DNA of 64,000 bases from Candidatus Thorarchaeota archaeon (GTDB lineage: Archaea; Asgardarchaeota; Thorarchaeia; Thorarchaeales; Thorarchaeaceae): the NCBI GenBank assembly GCA_029855935.1, contig JAGSHN010000019.1, positions 1 through 64,000 of the forward strand, read 5' to 3'. Each line of letters starts with the position of its first letter. Position 1 is the stretch's first letter. A model generated the notes under the pieces. The model was not told the origin of the DNA. It made no database searches and worked only from the letters and a program-made list of their open reading frames with translations. Of the stretch, positions 36,507 to 48,539 are shown piece after piece. Both the position numbers and the translations under genes were made by a program.

Positions 36507-37637
36507 CTACTGCAATGCCTGTGTCAGAACATCTTCCACCATGAATTCTCTGTCGGTACGCCACCTGTGGTTCTCCTCGTCCAAGGTCTGTGACCATATG
36601 TAGAATATGTAGCTGTGTGTGTAGTCCATCAGGAACACGGACATCTCAGTCAGCAGCGAGTAGAGGCTCGACAGCAGTGGCGATAGATGTGATGGCTGGA
36701 GTCGGACGAACCAAAAGAGCTCATCTCCACTGACACGCATTGTGGACTCGAAGGGTATGGGACGGGCCTGCAGTCTTGACCAGAGGTCGAGCAGTTCGTC
36801 TGGATCGCCTCTCCCGACGACTATGATGTTGCTGTAGATGTCGAACGCCTCTGGGTCAAAGGCGACCCTATATCCCTCGATGCACTCCTCTCTGAGCATC
36901 CTGAGTCGTCGACTGAAGGTGGTCGGCGTGATGTCTACTCCGCGCCGTCGCAGAGCGTCTATGATCTCCACATTCTTCCGTCTGGCGTTCTTCATCAGCT
37001 CATAGAGTATCTCAAGATCCCTCTGAGTCAGCCACTCTAGTGCAACGCCCGAATCGCCCGTGGGGCTCTCCTGAGGCGGGGCCATCACGTCGGTCTGGAA
37101 CCAGTTCGCCCAGTCAAAATCCCATCTCATCGACTCTGGGTCCCAGCCATCTATTTTCAGCGACGTGTAGATTGTGGGTTCGTTGGCCACCACGAACTGC
37201 GCCCTCTCGACGACTCCAGCCTGCTGCAGTAGTCTCACAAGCCCTCTGACCTGTGATGAGGTGCCGAGGGGCACTCTGAACTGCAGGAACACGCCATTGA
37301 ATGCGCCATAGCATCTGCATCTGTACGCGGTGTACGGATGCACCCTGGCAACTCTCTCAAGGACTGTCGTTGCCTCCGGCCCAGTCGCCTCCAGCAGAAC
37401 GTCGGTGGCCTCAAGACCGAGGTTGTGATTGTTCAGTAACGGGTTGACCGTGAAGTATCTCTTCCCTCCCTCCTCACCACTGAGAAGACGTAGCCTCCTC
37501 AGTGCTGTCGGCTTGGAGACACCAATCCTGGTTGCAAGTTCCTCGATTGTCGCCAGGGGCCTCTCCTGGAGGGCAATCAGTAGCGAGAGATACTGCGCCG
37601 TCAGGCCAGCCACCAGACTCACGGCTCCCCCCTTCAC
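36507..37637 (-). CDS. two-domain winged-helix regulator, paralogue A
   Basis: The 376-residue protein has two AsnC/Lrp-like halves. HTH 1 lies near residues 18-50 (A-T-I-E-E-L-A-T-R-I-G-V-S-K-P-T-A-L-R-R-L) with a sensor-like sheet after it. HTH 2 lies near 205-245 (L-T-Q-R-D-L-E-I-L-Y-E-L-M, then T-P-T-T-F-S-R-R-L-R) with a second sheet. The last 45 residues, S-Y-I-F-Y-I-W-S-Q-T, then N-H-R-W-R-T-D-R-E-F-M-V-E-D, recur in the regulator at 44341. It begins 20 bases after the stop of a secreted DxDxDG protein, co-transcribed with it. Target genes are unknown; the ferredoxin and acyl-CoA dehydrogenase genes follow. Confidence 0.7.
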   Translation of the reverse strand: MKGGAVSLVAGLTAQYLSLLIALQERPLATIEELATRIGVSKPTALRRLRLLSGEEGGKRYFTVNPLLNNHNLGLEATDVLLEATGPEATTVLERVARVHPYTAYRCRCYGAFNGVFLQFRVPLGTSSQVRGLVRLLQQAGVVERAQFVVANEPTIYTSLKIDGWDPESMRWDFDWANWFQTDVMAPPQESPTGDSGVALEWLTQRDLEILYELMKNARRKNVEIIDALRRRGVDITPTTFSRRLRMLREECIEGYRVAFDPEAFDIYSNIIVVGRGDPDELLDLWSRLQARPIPFESTMRVSGDELFWFVRLQPSHLSPLLSSLYSLLTEMSVFLMDYTHSYIFYIWSQTLDEENHRWRTDREFMVEDVLTQALQ

Positions 37638-37657
37638 TTGGTCGACTCAGAGAGGGC

Positions 37658-38164
37658 CTATGGTGTGGCGGTGAACGAGAGCACCTCTGCAAGCGGAGGC
37701 CCTGGATTACCCTCTGTCGGCGGGTCGAATGCGAGTGAGTCGGCTGACCAGTATGTCGTCTGCCCGCACTCTATCTCGGTGTAGACGAGAAACCTGTACC
37801 AGCCGGGTTCGGTGATGACATTATACCATCCGACGTTGAGATGTACGTGCCTGTAGGTCCCCACAATTGTCACAATGAAGAGATAGGCATCACCAGACGG
37901 TAGGACAAGATAACAGTAGACATCCGTGAGCGTGAAACACGCCGGGCAATAGACCTCGATGAACAGGCCTGTCACGGCGTCGTCCCTCACACCATCTGCA
38001 TCGAGGTCAACATACTCTCCTCTCTCTGCAATCACGTTGAACCACGTGGCCCTGCAGGAGCGTCTTCCCGCAGCACTGGCTGGGGTAACGAACGACACAG
38101 ATGCCACGACAATCATGACGAGGAGCAACAGCCTTGTTGTGCGACTAATCATATGAGCAGTCAC
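37658..38164 (-). CDS. secreted protein with DxDxDG calcium-loop-like motif, member A
   Basis: The 168-residue protein has a signal peptide (hydrophobic residues 12-25, then P-A-S-A-A-G). The mature part has Y-V-D-L-D-A-D-G-V-R-D-D near 51-62, an EF-hand/thrombospondin-like D-x-D-x-D-G loop. Further beta strands include L-P-S-G-D-A-Y, T-E-P-G-W-Y-R-F-L-V-Y, and the end F-D-P-P-T-E-G-N-P-G-P-P. A protein with the same order of landmarks lies at 45592-46101. Each is followed on the same strand by a related two-domain regulator. The role may be ligand or calcium binding at the cell surface (inference). Confidence 0.7.
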   Translation of the reverse strand: MTAHMISRTTRLLLLVMIVVASVSFVTPASAAGRRSCRATWFNVIAERGEYVDLDADGVRDDAVTGLFIEVYCPACFTLTDVYCYLVLPSGDAYLFIVTIVGTYRHVHLNVGWYNVITEPGWYRFLVYTEIECGQTTYWSADSLAFDPPTEGNPGPPLAEVLSFTATP

Positions 38165-39080: not shown

Positions 39081-39662
39081 CTATACCTTGCCCTGTTTCC
39101 AGTCGCCATGGGTCCAGAGTATCCTGTGATACTCTCTCATCAGCACATCTGGCCAGCTCCCTACAGACCTCAGAAAGATGTTGGCCGTCAGCGATACGTG
39201 GTCATCGCGTGCAAAGACCTCTAACTCGGGGCACTCGAACAGCGGTGATATGTCAATTCTCCGCAACTCGTTATGGTCGAGACGTATCTCACGTAGATGT
39301 GGACAGTCAGCCAGTGGTGTCAGGTCTATGCTCCGCAGCCTGTTGTGGCTCAGGTCAATCTCCCTGAGGGCCTTGCATCGTGACAGCGGTGTGAGATCGA
39401 GTTCCGTGATGCGGTTGTACTGCAGCCACAGGCTCTCCAGCTGAGGGCAATATACGAGGGGCCACAGGTCGATGCGTGCAATATCTCTCAGTTGGAGGTT
39501 GACCCTAGTGTCGTCCCGCCCGATGAGAATCTGAGTCTCAAGACCGCTCGTGGTGACGTACCTCACACTCACACTACGGTCGTCCTGCTCGACCCCGGCA
39601 ACCAGCCGCCCCTCTGGGTCGCTGTCATTCCTCTCGTGTTCTTGTTGATTGATGCGCATCAA
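39081..39662 (-). CDS. short LRR protein with D-L-T-P-L core
   Basis: The 193-residue protein starts at M1 39662 or M2 39659. The TATA box at 39681-39688 lies 25 bases from M2, so a leaderless start at M2 fits best. A beta-rich N-terminal 60 residues come first. Four to five LRR units with I-D-L-W-P-L, L-D-L-T-P-L-S-R-C, S-I-D-L-T-P-L-A-D-C and R-I-D-I-S-P-L-F-E-C follow, the last being the terminal cap also seen in the LRR at 7849. It is cytoplasmic. A similar protein is upstream on the same strand (39779). The binding partner is unknown. Confidence 0.85.
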   Translation of the reverse strand: MMRINQQEHERNDSDPEGRLVAGVEQDDRSVSVRYVTTSGLETQILIGRDDTRVNLQLRDIARIDLWPLVYCPQLESLWLQYNRITELDLTPLSRCKALREIDLSHNRLRSIDLTPLADCPHLREIRLDHNELRRIDISPLFECPELEVFARDDHVSLTANIFLRSVGSWPDVLMREYHRILWTHGDWKQGKV

Positions 39663-39680
39663 CTCATAGTCTGGACAAAC

Positions 39681-39688
39681 AGTATATC
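39681..39688 (-). promoter_or_regulatory. TATA-like box of the short LRR gene
   Basis: On the minus strand the sequence is GATATACT, 20-29 bases upstream of the two tandem ATG codons (39662, 39659). This fits a leaderless transcript. Confidence 0.45.
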
Positions 39689-39778
39689 AATCCTGTCAAT
39701 CCCACTCTCAGGCTGTGTGAGCGCAACTGGGGCTCTGATGATCGTGCGGTGCCTGAGCATATCCTCTCTTCGCGTCCC

Positions 39779-40438
39779 TCACATCAGACTCATTCTCTCT
39801 CTCAGGTACTCGAGACCCCTCTCCAGAGTGAACAGGCGTCTGAAGTCTCCTCTCTCCTCAGCCTCTCTGATCTCCTCGATGAAGGCCTTCTCGACCTTCT
39901 CACAGAGTCTGAATCTCAACGTCTCATCGACGATATGTGCGTTGTCGGGGCTTGGATACAGGTCTGCAAGCTCAGCATAGATTCTATTCTTGATGTTCTC
40001 GACAACACGCTGTGGGTCCATCTCCTCCGGAGTGCGTGTCCAGTGGACAGCACGCCTGCGTCGCAGTCCGTCGAGTGGACGTGGTCTGGGTCCGCTGGTT
40101 CCAATCTCGTAGTCGGCACGGATGACGACTGCAGGATCGACCTCTATTGTGGAGAGGTGTGGACAGGAGAACAGCGGGGTGACGTCAAGCTCTGTCAGAG
40201 GGTTATTGATGAGATTGAGACTTGACAGTCTCTTGCATCGGATTAGTGGCCACAGGTCAATCTGAGTCAGGCTGTTGTTGGACAGGTCTAGTGACCTCAG
40301 TTCCGTGCACCTAGCTAGGGGTGCAAGATCGATACTGGTGATGTGACGGTATGAGAGGTCGATGGCTGTGATCTCAGGCTCCAGACGGAGGATGTCCTCG
40401 CCGCGCCTCGTCCTGTACCTGAGCAGAATTGTTTCCAC
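39779..40438 (-). CDS. LRR protein with helical C-terminal extension
   Basis: The 219-residue protein starts at GTG 40438, after GAGGAGG 12-18 bases upstream. The LRR part is short: I-T-A-I-D-L-S-Y, S-I-D-L-A-P-L-A-R-C, Q-I-D-L-W-P-L-I-R-C and L-D-V-T-P-L-F-S-C with I-E-V-D-P, the same cap as the LRR at 7849. A helical, Arg/Glu-rich tail of about 100 residues (from 120) is unlike the other LRR proteins. AT-rich DNA (40473-40484) upstream is the likely promoter. Two LRR genes side by side suggest local duplication. Confidence 0.85.
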   Translation of the reverse strand: METILLRYRTRRGEDILRLEPEITAIDLSYRHITSIDLAPLARCTELRSLDLSNNSLTQIDLWPLIRCKRLSSLNLINNPLTELDVTPLFSCPHLSTIEVDPAVVIRADYEIGTSGPRPRPLDGLRRRRAVHWTRTPEEMDPQRVVENIKNRIYAELADLYPSPDNAHIVDETLRFRLCEKVEKAFIEEIREAEERGDFRRLFTLERGLEYLRERMSLM

Positions 40439-42327: not shown

Positions 42328-44145
42328 CTACGGTACAGTCAGGGTCTCGGATGTCTCCACGTTGTCCGCGGAGTTATAGGTGTATCCCGTCTTGACGAGA
42401 TTGGTCACAGTGGATGTGTACGTGCCGGTCCCGCCACGCTGATACACGAACGTCACAGTTCCATCCGTCCCCGTGTCTGCGTTACCAGTGGCATGCGAGC
42501 CATCAGGTAGTGTCATATCCAAGTAGACGGTCACGCCCGAGAGTGGCGAGCCAGTTCCGTCGTGGACTGTCACCTTGGTGTAGACATCGTACCAGACGAA
42601 GATCCAGAAGCCGCCCTTCTGATACCACATGTCGATGCTGGCGACATGCATTGTGTTGGCAGATCCTTCCTCTGTGGTCGCAGAGGCTGGATCAGACTTC
42701 TCACCCTCGTTGCCTGAGGTGTCGACCGCTGAGACCTCGTAGGTGTAGGTTGTGCCTGGGGACAGACCTGAGTCGGTGTAGGTCGTGTCCGTAGTCTCGG
42801 CAATCTTGGTGCCGTCACGGTAGACGTTGTAGTGGTCGAGGTCCGACTCGGTGTTGGCATCCCACGTCAGCTTGATCTGGGTTGACGACAGGGTCGTTGC
42901 GGTCAGGCCGGTCACCTTGGCTGGTGGGGTCGTGTCAGGGGGTGTGCTGCCACCGCCCGCAGCGTCCACTGCAGCTGGGGCGTTGACCTCACCATATCCG
43001 TACCGTTCGTCCCAGCCGGAAGGTCCGAGGTCGGTGGATGTCGTGTGGAGTATGTCCCTCACCTGGGCGGGCGTCAGGTCATGATTGGCACTCAGTATCA
43101 GTGCAACGACGCCAGCGACCATCGGACAGGCCATTGAGGTACCGCTCATCGTGTCATAGTTCTTGCTGTAACCGTACCACCAGCTGGTGAGTGTCACCGA
43201 GTAGGTGGGCATCGTGCTATATATGTCGACACCGGGAGCGACAACCTCCTGCTCAGGGCCGTAGTTGCTGAAGCTTGCGAGCTGATGGTCCTTGTCAATT
43301 GCTCCCACTGCGATGGCGTTATCGTATGCTGCAGGATAGGATATCTGGTTCTTGCCGTCATTGCCTGATGCTGCAACGACAACTATGCCGGCATTGTATG
43401 CGCGGTTGACCGCATCATTGAATGCCGAGTCGTAGCTACCACCGCCAAGGCTCATAGAGATGACGTCCATCCCGTTGTCTATCGCCCAGTCTATGCCGGC
43501 GATGATGTCACTTGTGTAGCCTGAGCCGTAGGCATCGAGTACACGGACAGCATAGATCGAGGCGTGGGGTGCAACTCCTATGACTCCCTCACCATTGTCC
43601 TCTGCCGCGACAATTCCCGCGCAGTGCGTGCCATGGCCATTTTCGTCCTTCGGGTCGTTGTCATCATCGACAAAGTCGTGACCGCCCGCGTAGACATCGT
43701 CAAGGTCGGGGTGCGTGTAGTCAATTCCGGTGTCCAGTATGGCGACCTTCACGCCACTACCATCCGGATTCCCTTGGACCACGTCGACAGCATCCTCGGC
43801 TCCGCCCCAGACCTGTTCGGCGTCCACATCGTCGACACCCCAGTCCAGGGTGTCTTGGAACAGACTGACTCTGTGGTCAATCTGGATTGACGACACGAAC
43901 CACGCATGTTCGAGTGTATGGTACAGCGCCATGGGGATTCGTGCGGCCATACCGTTCAGCACACTGTATTCTTGATACACATCTATTCCCGCTATGTTGA
44001 CCTCTACTCCCGGTTTGAACAGAATGACCGCGTTGACATAGCGATCAGTCTGTGGCGACCGATTAATCGCGACGAGCGCGTTGGAGAAAATGAGTACTGA
44101 GATCACCACAGCGGAGAACAGAACCGCTCTCTCTCTTCTCCTCAT
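42328..44145 (-). CDS. secreted subtilisin-like serine protease with Fn3 domain
   Basis: The 605-residue exoprotein has a signal peptide (residues 7-27), an inhibitor-like propeptide to about 95, and then the S8 catalytic domain. The triad is D138 (L-D-T-G-I-D), H171 (N-G-H-G-T-H-C-A-G) and S337 (S-G-T-S-M-A-C-P), with oxyanion N262. A Pro/Thr linker (about 400-411) and a fibronectin III domain (about 412-495) follow. The last 110 residues are beta-rich, Ig-like. It would act outside the cell. Downstream on the minus strand is the end of the block, upstream the regulator at 44341. A TATA-like ATATTTAAAG lies about 90 bases upstream. Confidence 0.93.
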   Translation of the reverse strand: MRRRERAVLFSAVVISVLIFSNALVAINRSPQTDRYVNAVILFKPGVEVNIAGIDVYQEYSVLNGMAARIPMALYHTLEHAWFVSSIQIDHRVSLFQDTLDWGVDDVDAEQVWGGAEDAVDVVQGNPDGSGVKVAILDTGIDYTHPDLDDVYAGGHDFVDDDNDPKDENGHGTHCAGIVAAEDNGEGVIGVAPHASIYAVRVLDAYGSGYTSDIIAGIDWAIDNGMDVISMSLGGGSYDSAFNDAVNRAYNAGIVVVAASGNDGKNQISYPAAYDNAIAVGAIDKDHQLASFSNYGPEQEVVAPGVDIYSTMPTYSVTLTSWWYGYSKNYDTMSGTSMACPMVAGVVALILSANHDLTPAQVRDILHTTSTDLGPSGWDERYGYGEVNAPAAVDAAGGGSTPPDTTPPAKVTGLTATTLSSTQIKLTWDANTESDLDHYNVYRDGTKIAETTDTTYTDSGLSPGTTYTYEVSAVDTSGNEGEKSDPASATTEEGSANTMHVASIDMWYQKGGFWIFVWYDVYTKVTVHDGTGSPLSGVTVYLDMTLPDGSHATGNADTGTDGTVTFVYQRGGTGTYTSTVTNLVKTGYTYNSADNVETSETLTVP

Positions 44146-44230: not shown

Positions 44231-44240
44231 ATATTTAAAG
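44231..44240 (-). promoter_or_regulatory. TATA-like element upstream of the subtilase gene
   Basis: On the minus strand the bases read CTTTAAATAT, some 86-95 bases before the ATG at 44145. It is the clearest AT-rich box in the 195-base gap and would give a leader of about 60 bases. Confidence 0.35.
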
Positions 44241-44340
44241 ACACTGGCAAAAACTGCACGCGTCTCGAACGTCGCACAGACGCACCCAGTTGTGTTCTTA
44301 GTGAGTGGGTCAGCTCGCTGGTGGAGTCGCCCGTTCAATA

Positions 44341-45531
44341 TCAGCGCTCCATATCGCGGAGCGGGGTCTCGACCACATACGACCGGTCGTTTCTCCAGCC
44401 ACTCTCTGGGTCATAGTTCTCGTGATAGAAGAAGTACGTGTAAGAAGAGTCGAGCTGAAGCTGATAGACGTGGACATCTCTACAGTGCTCCCAGAAGAAC
44501 TCGGAGATCTCAGGAGCGAATGATGGCGGTGTCATCGAGTAGAGCAGGAAGTCGTTGCCGTTGGTCACGCCCTTCATCTCGAAGGGTATGGCGCCGCTGT
44601 CGATGAACCAGTGGAAGGTCCGGGCATTGAGTTCTCCCTCTGTGTCGAACGTGCCGATGATCAGTTGCGGATACGTGAGGTCAAAGATTGTCCGGTCGTA
44701 GTAGAGGATGTCCTTAGGAGCAAAGAGCCTTCTGATTCGTTCGACGCGTCGTGAGATGGTCGTGGCATCTCTGTCATAGACCTCGGCCAGTCGAGTGAAG
44801 TTCGGATGGGCGTTGATTGTCAGTTCGCGCAACAGCTGTAGGTCGAGCAGGTCTATGGACTCAGGTGGGGTCGGCCTGTCCTCGGGTGGGCTCTTGTCAG
44901 GACAGCGCTCAAGGAACTCACTCCAGATGGACTCGACACGACTCAGACGAATCCCTATGGCTGACTTCCTCCCGTACTCGATCTCCCATCTATTGGTCTT
45001 GATGTCCCAGCGCTGGAGGTCGGCACCACGACCTGCAACGAATCTCGACTCGATGACTCTATAGTCCTCGCACGCGCCTCTCTCAACAAGAGCGTTGTAC
45101 AGGTCACGTATCATGATGTCTGTCTGAGGCGGGATGTCAAACTGGGCGTACAACACAGCCTCGTCTCCAAAGGCGACGACACGATAATGGGTGTGTGGAT
45201 GGACATCGCAGAGTCGTTTGAGCCTGTTCAGCTGGTCCCTTGTCTGTATCCCTAGGAAGATAATATGGTGCCTAAGCAGGCCGAGGCTACTGGGGACGTA
45301 GGCGGCCTCGACCTCCGTCTGGAGACGCTCTCCCAGTAGCGGATCGGTTATCACCCTGCTGGGACGTAGAACTCCTCTCTCACGCAGTTTCATCAGGCGG
45401 AGTCGGACTGTCTCTGGTGCGACACCCATCTTCCTTGCTATCTGTGTGTTGCTCAGTGAAGGTTCCTGTTCGAGGGCCAGCAGAATCTTGAGGTCCCTAC
45501 TATCAATGTGTGTCGACGTGGAGGCCACCAT
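44341..45531 (-). CDS. two-domain winged-helix regulator, paralogue B
   Basis: The 396-residue protein has HTH 1 at about 11-47 (L-K-I-L-L-A-L-E-Q-E-P-S-L-S, then K-M-G-V-A-P-E-T-V-R-L-R-L), a sensor-like half, then HTH 2 near 225-265 (L-L-D-L-Q-L-L-R-E-L, then D-A-T-T-I-S-R-R-V-E-R-I-R-R) and a second sensor-like half. It ends with Y-T-Y-F-F-Y-H-E and W-R-N-D-R-S-Y-V-V-E-T, matching the regulator at 36507. It lies 60 bases after the secreted protein of the same pair type, and the subtilase gene follows it. AsnC/Lrp proteins usually sense amino acids or other small ligands (family knowledge); the ligand here is unknown. Confidence 0.7.
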   Translation of the reverse strand: MVASTSTHIDSRDLKILLALEQEPSLSNTQIARKMGVAPETVRLRLMKLRERGVLRPSRVITDPLLGERLQTEVEAAYVPSSLGLLRHHIIFLGIQTRDQLNRLKRLCDVHPHTHYRVVAFGDEAVLYAQFDIPPQTDIMIRDLYNALVERGACEDYRVIESRFVAGRGADLQRWDIKTNRWEIEYGRKSAIGIRLSRVESIWSEFLERCPDKSPPEDRPTPPESIDLLDLQLLRELTINAHPNFTRLAEVYDRDATTISRRVERIRRLFAPKDILYYDRTIFDLTYPQLIIGTFDTEGELNARTFHWFIDSGAIPFEMKGVTNGNDFLLYSMTPPSFAPEISEFFWEHCRDVHVYQLQLDSSYTYFFYHENYDPESGWRNDRSYVVETPLRDMER

Positions 45532-45591
45532 TGCTCTGTCTTCCTGTCAGATGTTTCATCGGGCTTTGGAGGGGACGTTGTATTGTGCTCC

Positions 45592-46101
45592 TCAACGGAC
45601 CCCGAATGTCGGCTTTCCGCCCTCACTTCCGCCTGGCGGGTCGAACACGTAGTGTTTGTAGTCATATGGGGTCCCAGGTGTGTAGAGTATGGCGTGGACA
45701 TAGACGGTGTAGTCGCCGGACTCTGTGGCGTGATTGAAGAACAGATTCTCTATCGTCACTGTGTCATAGAATGCGAGCACGTAGACTATGTACGAGTAAT
45801 TGGTCCCCGAGGGTAGCTGTAGGGTGATCAGGTAAGCGAACCGGCAGTACGGGAAGAGGCCCTCGATGTCGAACCGTGTGATCACGAGGACATCATCGGA
45901 GAACGAGTCGTGGTCGAGGTCAGTGTAGGTCGCATATGTTATCGTCACAGTGATAGTCGGCTCGGTGCTGTCAGAGGAGTCGTCGGTGGAGGCCGCATAC
46001 GCGGGCTGGACTCCAAGCAGCGCGAAGACCGTGAGCACTAGCAGGCCCGCCACGAGCGCTCTTGATTTCATCCCTCTCGGCGGGGTAAGCATCTCTCTCA
46101 T
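45592..46101 (-). CDS. secreted protein with DxDxD calcium-loop-like motif, member B
   Basis: The 169-residue protein has a signal peptide (about 12-36, V-Q-P-A-Y-A-A-S). Then come T-Y-T-D-L-D-H-D-S-F-S-D-D near 57-69, F-D-I-E-G-L-F-P-Y, L-P-S-G-T-N-Y, a strand block with E-S-G-D-Y-T-V-Y-V, and the ending F-D-P-P-G-G-S-E-G-G-K-P. The landmarks match the protein at 37658 in order and spacing: DxDx(D)-DD, LPSG, E-x-G-x-Y, FDPP. It has a Ser/Asp-rich stretch after the signal peptide. It is paired with the regulator at 44341. Confidence 0.7.
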   Translation of the reverse strand: MREMLTPPRGMKSRALVAGLLVLTVFALLGVQPAYAASTDDSSDSTEPTITVTITYATYTDLDHDSFSDDVLVITRFDIEGLFPYCRFAYLITLQLPSGTNYSYIVYVLAFYDTVTIENLFFNHATESGDYTVYVHAILYTPGTPYDYKHYVFDPPGGSEGGKPTFGVR

Positions 46102-46253
46102 CTCTTGCCTCCTCTCAAGTAGGCTGCACGCTGGTATGGCAAGATGGCTATATATTGGTTTTGGGAGAAACTGCGTTGCAGCTGGCAGTGCCGTACTACT
46201 GAGGGACCGTCAGCCGTGCTTGTCGAGGAGCGGAGGGGCGGACAGTAGCCGCC

Positions 46254-47510: not shown

Positions 47511-47594
47511 AGTCTCATCCTGCCGTGACTCGCGGGCACAGTCATATTAGTGTTACATCACTGTCGGGAATCAATTGCACGGTGTTGTCCCGCA

Positions 47595-48539
47595 ATGAAG
47601 CAGAAGATTACTAGCGATGAACAGAGGTTACTGTGGCTTCTCGTCCGGAACGCGAGGACGCCTCTGACCGTGGTCGCCGAACAGGTCGGTCGCGGTCGTA
47701 ACTGGGTCGCACGGACGGTACGTCGTCTTGCAAGGACCGGTGTGATCCGGGCCTATACCACAGTCGTGAATCCGCTGGCGGGCCACATAGAACGCAGCAC
47801 GATACTCCTTGTGAAGACGAATCCACGTGAGACTCATCTGAGTGGTGCATTGCTCAGAGTCCCAGACATCGAGTCCCTTGACGGGATCTCGGGGGAACAC
47901 TCCCTGCTTGGGCTCTTCAGGTTCTCCAGCGCAACATCGTTTCGCGACTTCCTCGACCTTGTTGACAGTACGATAGCACGCAGCTCGTGGAAGACCTACT
48001 CACTCGTGCAGGTCCTCGCGACATACAAGACCAGGGGTTTTGAGGTGATGGCCCCTCCGCGAGTCAACTCGCCTCTCTCGGCCACTGACCTTGAGATACT
48101 GCGCATAGTCCGTCGTCAGACTCCCTCCCCTGAGAGACCGTTCCCGCTCTCGCAACGCGACATCGGTTCACGGCTGAGGCGACCACTGAGCCAACCGGCT
48201 GTGTCCAAGGCACTCGGGCGTCTTGAGTCAAGTGGTGTCATCCTCGGGTACTCTGTGGACATACCATTCCAGTATCTGGGCCTGCCAATCAAGTTCTTCG
48301 TGCAGATCAAGGCCTCCCCCGGGACAATTGCTGACACTGCACGCACCATTGCCGCAATCGAGGAGGTGTGGGACCTGCACAGGACGAGTGAGTCGTACAG
48401 TCTGTTTGCCACTGTCAGGACATCAAGTATCGACGACTACAATCGCTTCCTGCGCAGGCTCTATGGCGACGAGAATGTTCTCGACACTCACTCATACATC
48501 TCGCTTGAGGAGTGGCCGCTGCCTGCTCATAGTGGTTGA
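47595..48539 (+). CDS. two-domain AsnC/Lrp-like winged-helix regulator, paralogue C
   Basis: The 314-residue protein starts at ATG 47595; a GTG at 47550 gives 15 more residues with no domain content. HTH 1 spans about 7-42 (L-L-V-R-N-A-R-T-P-L, then R-G-R-N-W-V-A-R-T-V-R-R-L). HTH 2 spans about 164-205 (L-E-I-L-R-I-V-R-R-Q, then Q-P-A-V-S-K-A-L-G-R-L-E). Each is followed by a ligand-binding-like sheet. It is shorter and more Lrp-like than the regulators at 36507 and 44341, and no secreted partner gene adjoins. It is divergent from ahcY, so it may control methyl-cycle genes (inference). Confidence 0.72.
   Translation: MKQKITSDEQRLLWLLVRNARTPLTVVAEQVGRGRNWVARTVRRLARTGVIRAYTTVVNPLAGHIERSTILLVKTNPRETHLSGALLRVPDIESLDGISGEHSLLGLFRFSSATSFRDFLDLVDSTIARSSWKTYSLVQVLATYKTRGFEVMAPPRVNSPLSATDLEILRIVRRQTPSPERPFPLSQRDIGSRLRRPLSQPAVSKALGRLESSGVILGYSVDIPFQYLGLPIKFFVQIKASPGTIADTARTIAAIEEVWDLHRTSESYSLFATVRTSSIDDYNRFLRRLYGDENVLDTHSYISLEEWPLPAHSG

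Follow-up and report, generated by a model that had tools for sequence, protein, structure and literature searches.

In the SpeB-Spi and staphopain-staphostatin operons, a secreted peptidase is linked to the gene of a small beta-protein, an inhibitor that remains in the cytosol. Chagasin is an inhibitor with an Ig-like fold that is associated with cysteine peptidases. A subtilase-associated precedent for an Ig-fold peptidase inhibitor is IPI/BsuPI of Bacillus subtilis (PMC3901451), and Asgard MAGs are reported to be rich in extracellular peptidase genes (PMC9123169). Here, we describe gene pairs of a Thorarchaeota genome in which a secreted protein with a D-x-D-x-D-G motif (S) is followed by a regulator with two winged-helix (wHTH) domains (R). 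Two such pairs, modules A and B, lie in the window, that is, the whole 64,000-nt stretch of DNA analyzed:

S_A, 37658..38164, minus strand: 168-aa exported beta-sandwich protein (ORF list, family alignments, AF2 model)
R_A, 36507..37637, minus strand: 376-aa predicted tandem Lrp/AsnC-type regulator, wHTH-RAM-like twice over (Pfam, AF2 model, Foldseek)
S_B, 45592..46101, minus strand: 169-aa paralogue of S_A in module B (ORF list, search, alignment)
R_B, 44341..45531, minus strand: 396-aa paralogue of R_A in module B (ORF list, searches, alignment)

The original prediction placed S_A and R_A 20 nt apart on one strand and saw the pair repeated at 44341-46101 with shared landmarks. Both claims hold: all four ORFs are present, S and R share a strand in each module (20 nt apart in A, 60 nt in B), and both S and both R align throughout. 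R_A and R_B are 25% identical over an end-to-end alignment, and R_A is 32-34% identical to the other two copies when the genome's R paralogues are aligned. The four S proteins of the genome likewise align end to end, with 24 invariant columns that include D-x-D-x-D, LPSG, and FDPP, so the two pairs are homologous. The true start of S_A is probably the ATG at 38152, 12 nt inside the annotated GTG.

With S_A as the query, the entire window genome (2.97 Mb, 97% complete) yielded exactly four S genes (E<1e-8), each with R directly downstream:

C8:37661 and C8:45607 (window), C21:49901, and C21:80335: the four S loci of the window genome

Since every S found genome-wide is paired, the pairing is not due to chance. 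Across 47 genomes of the class, R lies 11-112 nt downstream of S on the same strand in 58 of 59 cases, and the sole S without R begins just 125 nt into its contig. At the level of the phylum, S is present in 69 of 228 genomes and a strong R in 83, with up to 8 R copies per genome. HMM searches of fetched Asgard loci found S adjoining 109 of 131 distinct R, in 106 cases directly upstream on the same strand. The two families thus co-occur well beyond this genome, and the secreted DxDxDG protein with its two-wHTH regulator is a real, repeated, and conserved cassette. In GTDB r220, a scan of low sensitivity with one genome per species gave 16 S relatives (11 from Heimdall- or Thorarchaeota, 1 from a Hermod bin, and 4 labeled just "archaeon"); given this insensitivity, a restriction of S to Asgard archaea is provisional. 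No S relatives were found in viral contigs, and literature searches returned no description of the module.

Several R relatives occur outside such pairs. The window genome encodes a more distant two-wHTH relative without an adjoining S (L022:5280-6380, E 3e-10) and two more tandem two-wHTH proteins side by side, also without S (L023:3320-5910). One Heimdall genus (L131, L132, L133, L134, L136, L137, and L139) has a single R without S; upstream of it, on the same strand, lies the gene of an unrelated protein of about 290 aa that carries a signal sequence and matches no Pfam family. Judging from these loci, the pairing of R with exported proteins may extend beyond S. R is in pieces at L106 and L114, as is a subtilase at L167:6411-7288, through gene decay or assembly error.

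In R_A and R_B, PF13412 (HTH_24) scores 38.3 and 47.6 bits (cutoff 21.9; E 1e-9 in R_A), and PF13404 (HTH_AsnC), which matches 10 of 14 R members tested, scores 27.6 and 46.7 bits (cutoff 27). The AlphaFold2 model of R_A (pLDDT 89) reads wHTH-RAM-like-wHTH-RAM-like, with two beta-alpha-beta-beta-alpha-beta units as the RAM-like parts. Foldseek aligns this model with Lrp structures; the best match is NirDL (4ch7, E 3e-11, full length), followed by Lrp/AsnC chains, and a PDB sequence search with R also placed Lrp chains on top. R is predicted to be a single-chain tandem Lrp/AsnC protein and constitutes a new tandem-Lrp subfamily. The canonical RAM model PF01037 matched neither R_A, R_B, nor other R members in Pfam, which makes amino-acid sensing by R a guess. 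Another two-domain Lrp-like regulator, with a recognized RAM domain (PF01037, 3e-15), is encoded at 47550-48539 on the plus strand of the window; it and the adenosylhomocysteinase gene next to module B are divergent, an arrangement kept in three sister species.

The AlphaFold2 model of S_A (pLDDT 86) comprises a signal helix and eight strands, and 90% of S proteins have an N-terminal signal sequence with no membrane span thereafter. S_A has the motifs DxDxDG, LPSG, E-x-G-x-Y, and FDPP; among 101 S, the conserved loops are 1-2 (DxDxDG), 3-4 (LPSG), 5-6 (E-x-G-x-Y), and 7-8 (DPPGG), at 2.6-3.2 bits versus 0.7-0.9 bits in the remaining loops. Alternate loops of an antiparallel sandwich share one pole, and this topology, read without coordinates, points to a single binding face on S. 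The strict D-x-D-x-D-G pattern occurs in 70 of the 101 sequences; D53, D55, and D57 are conserved at 87-90% (weighted), and D62 is invariant. Structure prediction, put forward originally as a check on the pair, gave R its tandem Lrp fold and left S without a confident fold match: Foldseek returned nothing below 1e-3, with TM-scores of about 0.4 to generic Ig/CARDB/RbmA sandwiches, and no fold family was assigned. Pfam gave nothing for S_A, weak single-member matches among other S being set aside, and detected no BsuPI/IPI or chagasin-type inhibitor family in 15 S members at E<=0.5; a PDB sequence search with S found nothing reliable and no inhibitor.

The evolutionary histories of the two partners are coupled. 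Distance matrices from trees with 101 members of either family correlate with r = 0.516, and this value fell to 0.093 (sd 0.028, maximum 0.216) in 2000 shuffles of S among the modules of one genome. Paralogous pairs therefore duplicated as units in which each member kept its partner, and S diversified jointly with its cognate R. Linkage alone could give such co-diversification, and so r is not proof of S-R contact. The recognition helices show no special divergence beyond the remainder of R.

Secreted peptidases recur beside the modules. The ferredoxin and acyl-CoA dehydrogenase genes that the original prediction took as the context of module A proved not to be conserved: four orthologues of module A in sister species (L147, L163, L165, and L169) have neither alongside. 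Secreted peptidases recur instead. An early count of "subtilase" beside 40 of 90 modules was discarded, because the underlying cluster had merged subtilases, caspases, phospholipase-like proteins, and small Big_1 proteins via their Ig domains; the families were therefore separated and tested against genome-wide counts. Of 39 modules in 11 genomes, which hold 109 S8 and 16 C14 genes in all, 15 have a subtilase (S8) no more than 3 kb away (1.0 expected, P 1e-13) and 8 have a caspase-like C14 gene in that range (0.16 expected, P 1e-12); these P values assume independence and are optimistic, since the genomes are related MAGs. The peptidase link is present in separate clades and in both Thor and non-Thor genomes. 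Zinc-phospholipase/S1-nuclease-like proteins with Big_1 domains, identified by weak Pfam scores, are also recurring neighbors.

The hydrolase may be divergent from the module or co-directional with it, upstream or downstream; its type is constant within each R/S clade and its orientation variable. The clade of window module B has a long subtilase, that of C21:80335 a short subtilase plus a phospholipase-like gene, and that of C21:49901 a caspase-like gene. The clade of module A has a small divergent Big_1-like gene, which is missing from the window itself. About 40% of the modules with full flanks, including module A, have no peptidase within 3 kb, and 17 of 50 have neither a hydrolase nor a Big_1-like neighbor. 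The survey of neighbors found no conserved membrane gene near modules. Two small leucine-rich-repeat-like proteins are encoded at 39081-40438 of the window, where synteny with a methyltransferase near module A is kept in sister species. Close to some A-clade modules, the gene of a membrane protein in which the motif IRPP..SGKVFRP recurs lies next to that of a small HTH-like protein (L147:7187-8582, L165:6561-8007, and L184:7410-9477); the membrane protein gene was not seen at the corresponding place in the window. The hydrolase of module B, conserved beside its clade and a predicted member of the R_B regulon, is as follows:

42328..44145, minus strand: secreted subtilase downstream of module B, Peptidase_S8 (Pfam 3e-77), then fn3 and a Big/MG4-like region

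In the genus of module B, this subtilase has a promoter of its own, about 1.9 kb from the S promoter, and a promoter element is common to the S-R and peptidase genes:

46149..46174, minus strand: candidate R_B operator and TATA box before S_B-R_B, GCAGTTTCTCCCAAAACCAATATATA
44232..44257, minus strand: candidate R_B operator and TATA box before the subtilase, GCAGTTTTTGCCAGTGTCTTTAAATA
L220:1294-2715, minus strand: gene of a secreted CUB-PPC-Peptidase_C13 (legumain-like) protein, with a module B candidate operator in its promoter

In three of the four species compared, both B promoters carry GCAG-N-TTY-NN-MCA-N6-WTAWATA, positioned identically with respect to the TATA box; the remaining one (L161) has a subtilase copy that is shorter by one base. 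Operator patterns were set after the promoters had been inspected, the 26-nt pattern being drawn from the S_B and subtilase promoters. With up to two mismatches, just two sites occur in the 64-kb window (0.03 expected). With up to one mismatch, the 26-nt pattern matches the whole window genome at two sites, before S_B and before the subtilase, and the genomes of two sister species, G002 and G003, at the equivalent two sites plus one more each; the reversed control pattern gave 0 matches in any of four genomes. The third site in G002 and G003 precedes the gene of the secreted CUB-PPC-Peptidase_C13 protein, an independent success, as neither this gene nor its product had been used in drawing the pattern.

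A different element is found in the T1 clade, where S and hydrolase promoters share GGGTnAA. When a PWM built from hydrolase promoters was applied to seven S promoters, six outscored every one of 184 control promoters. Of these six, the L168 promoter is not independent, because it shares an intergenic region with a divergent subtilase promoter. In the window genome, the strict T1 pattern has just two matches, which face each other within the T1 intergenic region. G002 gave one unrelated match to this pattern and one match to the reversed control, and the genome-wide use of the pattern was set aside. Module A yielded no operator, the A-clade upstream alignment being too little conserved.

We consider it moderately probable that each module works as a control cassette complete in itself, in which a local R governs the S-R operon and secreted hydrolases, with S acting outside the cell. 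This reading builds on the pairing, cognate co-diversification, peptidase neighborhood, and common promoter element described above, all computed and mostly from MAGs; binding of this element by R, the direction of control, the ligand of R, and the action of S are what we infer. R would bind an operator at the TATA box, which for module B would be the 26-nt element. In the B clade, conserved blocks lie just upstream and just downstream of the TATA box, and a factor bound at the downstream blocks would cover it, which favors repression by blocking of TBP as the likelier mode. The S-R operon itself would be a target, as would a secreted hydrolase gene or a few of them, as a rule the neighboring subtilase, caspase-like, or zinc-phospholipase-like gene. 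The RAM-like domains suggest a small-molecule cue bound there, probably an intracellular metabolite and plausibly amino acids released by protease digestion. Exported S would act upon the hydrolase or together with it through its conserved one-pole loops, its likeliest role being that of an Ig-type inhibitor, stabilizer, or anchor; this role is our guess from linkage, predicted co-regulation, and one-pole conservation.

A rather unlikely reading has S as merely one exported product under R control, with a surface, adhesion, or Ca-binding role, the peptidases being co-regulated but not acted on by S. It would accommodate the modules with neither hydrolase nor Big_1-like neighbor and the generic character of the weak fold matches, and the Heimdall R beside an unrelated exported protein suggests that R may just govern exported proteins. 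It agrees less well with the tracking of hydrolase type by S clade and with the concentration of S conservation in one alternate loop set, as for a specific partner. We regard as less probable still an export-coupled feedback comparable to FlgM/sigma-28, in which each R is bound in the cytosol by the precursor of its cognate S until that precursor is exported, so that R reads secretion capacity. Co-diversification beyond species phylogeny, the nearly uniform S-then-R order of the adjacent pairs, and the failure to find a membrane partner are all in keeping with this scheme, but mere linkage also predicts co-diversification, and the DxDxDG site, like the conserved loops, appears suited to an extracellular setting.

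The original prediction of a sensor-regulator signaling cassette is supported in part: the conserved cassette is real, whereas the extracellular sensor, which lacks a membrane link, is unsupported. That one exported and one cytosolic gene are nearly always together, and that S bears an acidic DxDxDG loop, would suit an S that senses outside and signals to R via an unseen membrane component. Yet S for the most part has no membrane span after its signal peptide, no conserved membrane gene lies nearby, and R is a one-component Lrp-type protein; a signal from S to R would therefore need a further, third part, and we hold this reading to be very improbable. Scarcely credible is R as a siroheme decarboxylase (NirDL/Ahb)-type enzyme of equal tandem Lrp fold. 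The argument for it is the top Foldseek match of R_A; against it, the NirDL-type HTH model PF22451 reached just E 0.08 in R_B and was absent in R_A, no other model of that family matched in Pfam, R is multiplied within genomes, and clade-specific promoter elements precede the S-R and hydrolase genes.

Eukaryotes have their closest known archaeal relatives in the Asgard group, about whose gene regulation little, to our knowledge, is known. S, which has no Pfam match, and the new R subfamily form a strictly paired module that is multiplied within genomes and whose candidate operators name target genes, among them secreted proteases and secreted caspase and legumain relatives. The resulting predictions, that R binds a named 26-nt site and S a named protease, are of bench size and bear on how Asgard archaea may control external protein digestion; the operator approach also offers a way to the target genes of other R paralogues. 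A broader extension, which we rate as unlikely, envisages Asgard-wide, lineage-specific export-coupled switches, where S is both product and cognate partner of R and each paralogous pair, through its own diverged operator, commands secreted hydrolases of a single class (subtilase, caspase-like, legumain-like, or phospholipase-like). If true, the closest relatives of eukaryotes would possess a combinatorial system for extracellular digestion that controls secreted relatives of caspase and legumain through dedicated switches.

Among known systems, R most resembles the Lrp/AsnC (feast/famine) regulators in its AsnC-type wHTH, its Lrp fold, and its top PDB sequence matches. It differs in having two wHTH-RAM-like units per chain on which PF01037 is silent, in its HPYTHYR...QFDIP motif, and in its strict pairing with an exported protein. 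NirDL (4ch7) shares the tandem Lrp-fold architecture over the full length, but R has no sequence-family match to it and many paralogues, and its promoter elements suggest a transcription factor. Membrane-linked sensor-regulator systems are dissimilar, as no transmembrane sensor or partner was found for S-R. The family-wide D-x-D-x-D-G-like loop of S recalls Ca-binding EF-hand/TSP3-like loops, and Ca binding by S is putative. With IPI/BsuPI and chagasin, S has in common an exported or surface Ig-like fold tied to subtilases (IPI) or cysteine peptidases (chagasin); unlike them, it displays other motifs and no sequence or Pfam similarity, and its inhibition of a peptidase is hypothetical. As in the SpeB-Spi and staphopain-staphostatin operons, the gene of a small beta-protein is linked to a secreted peptidase, but S, in contrast to those inhibitors, has a signal peptide and a regulator of its own.
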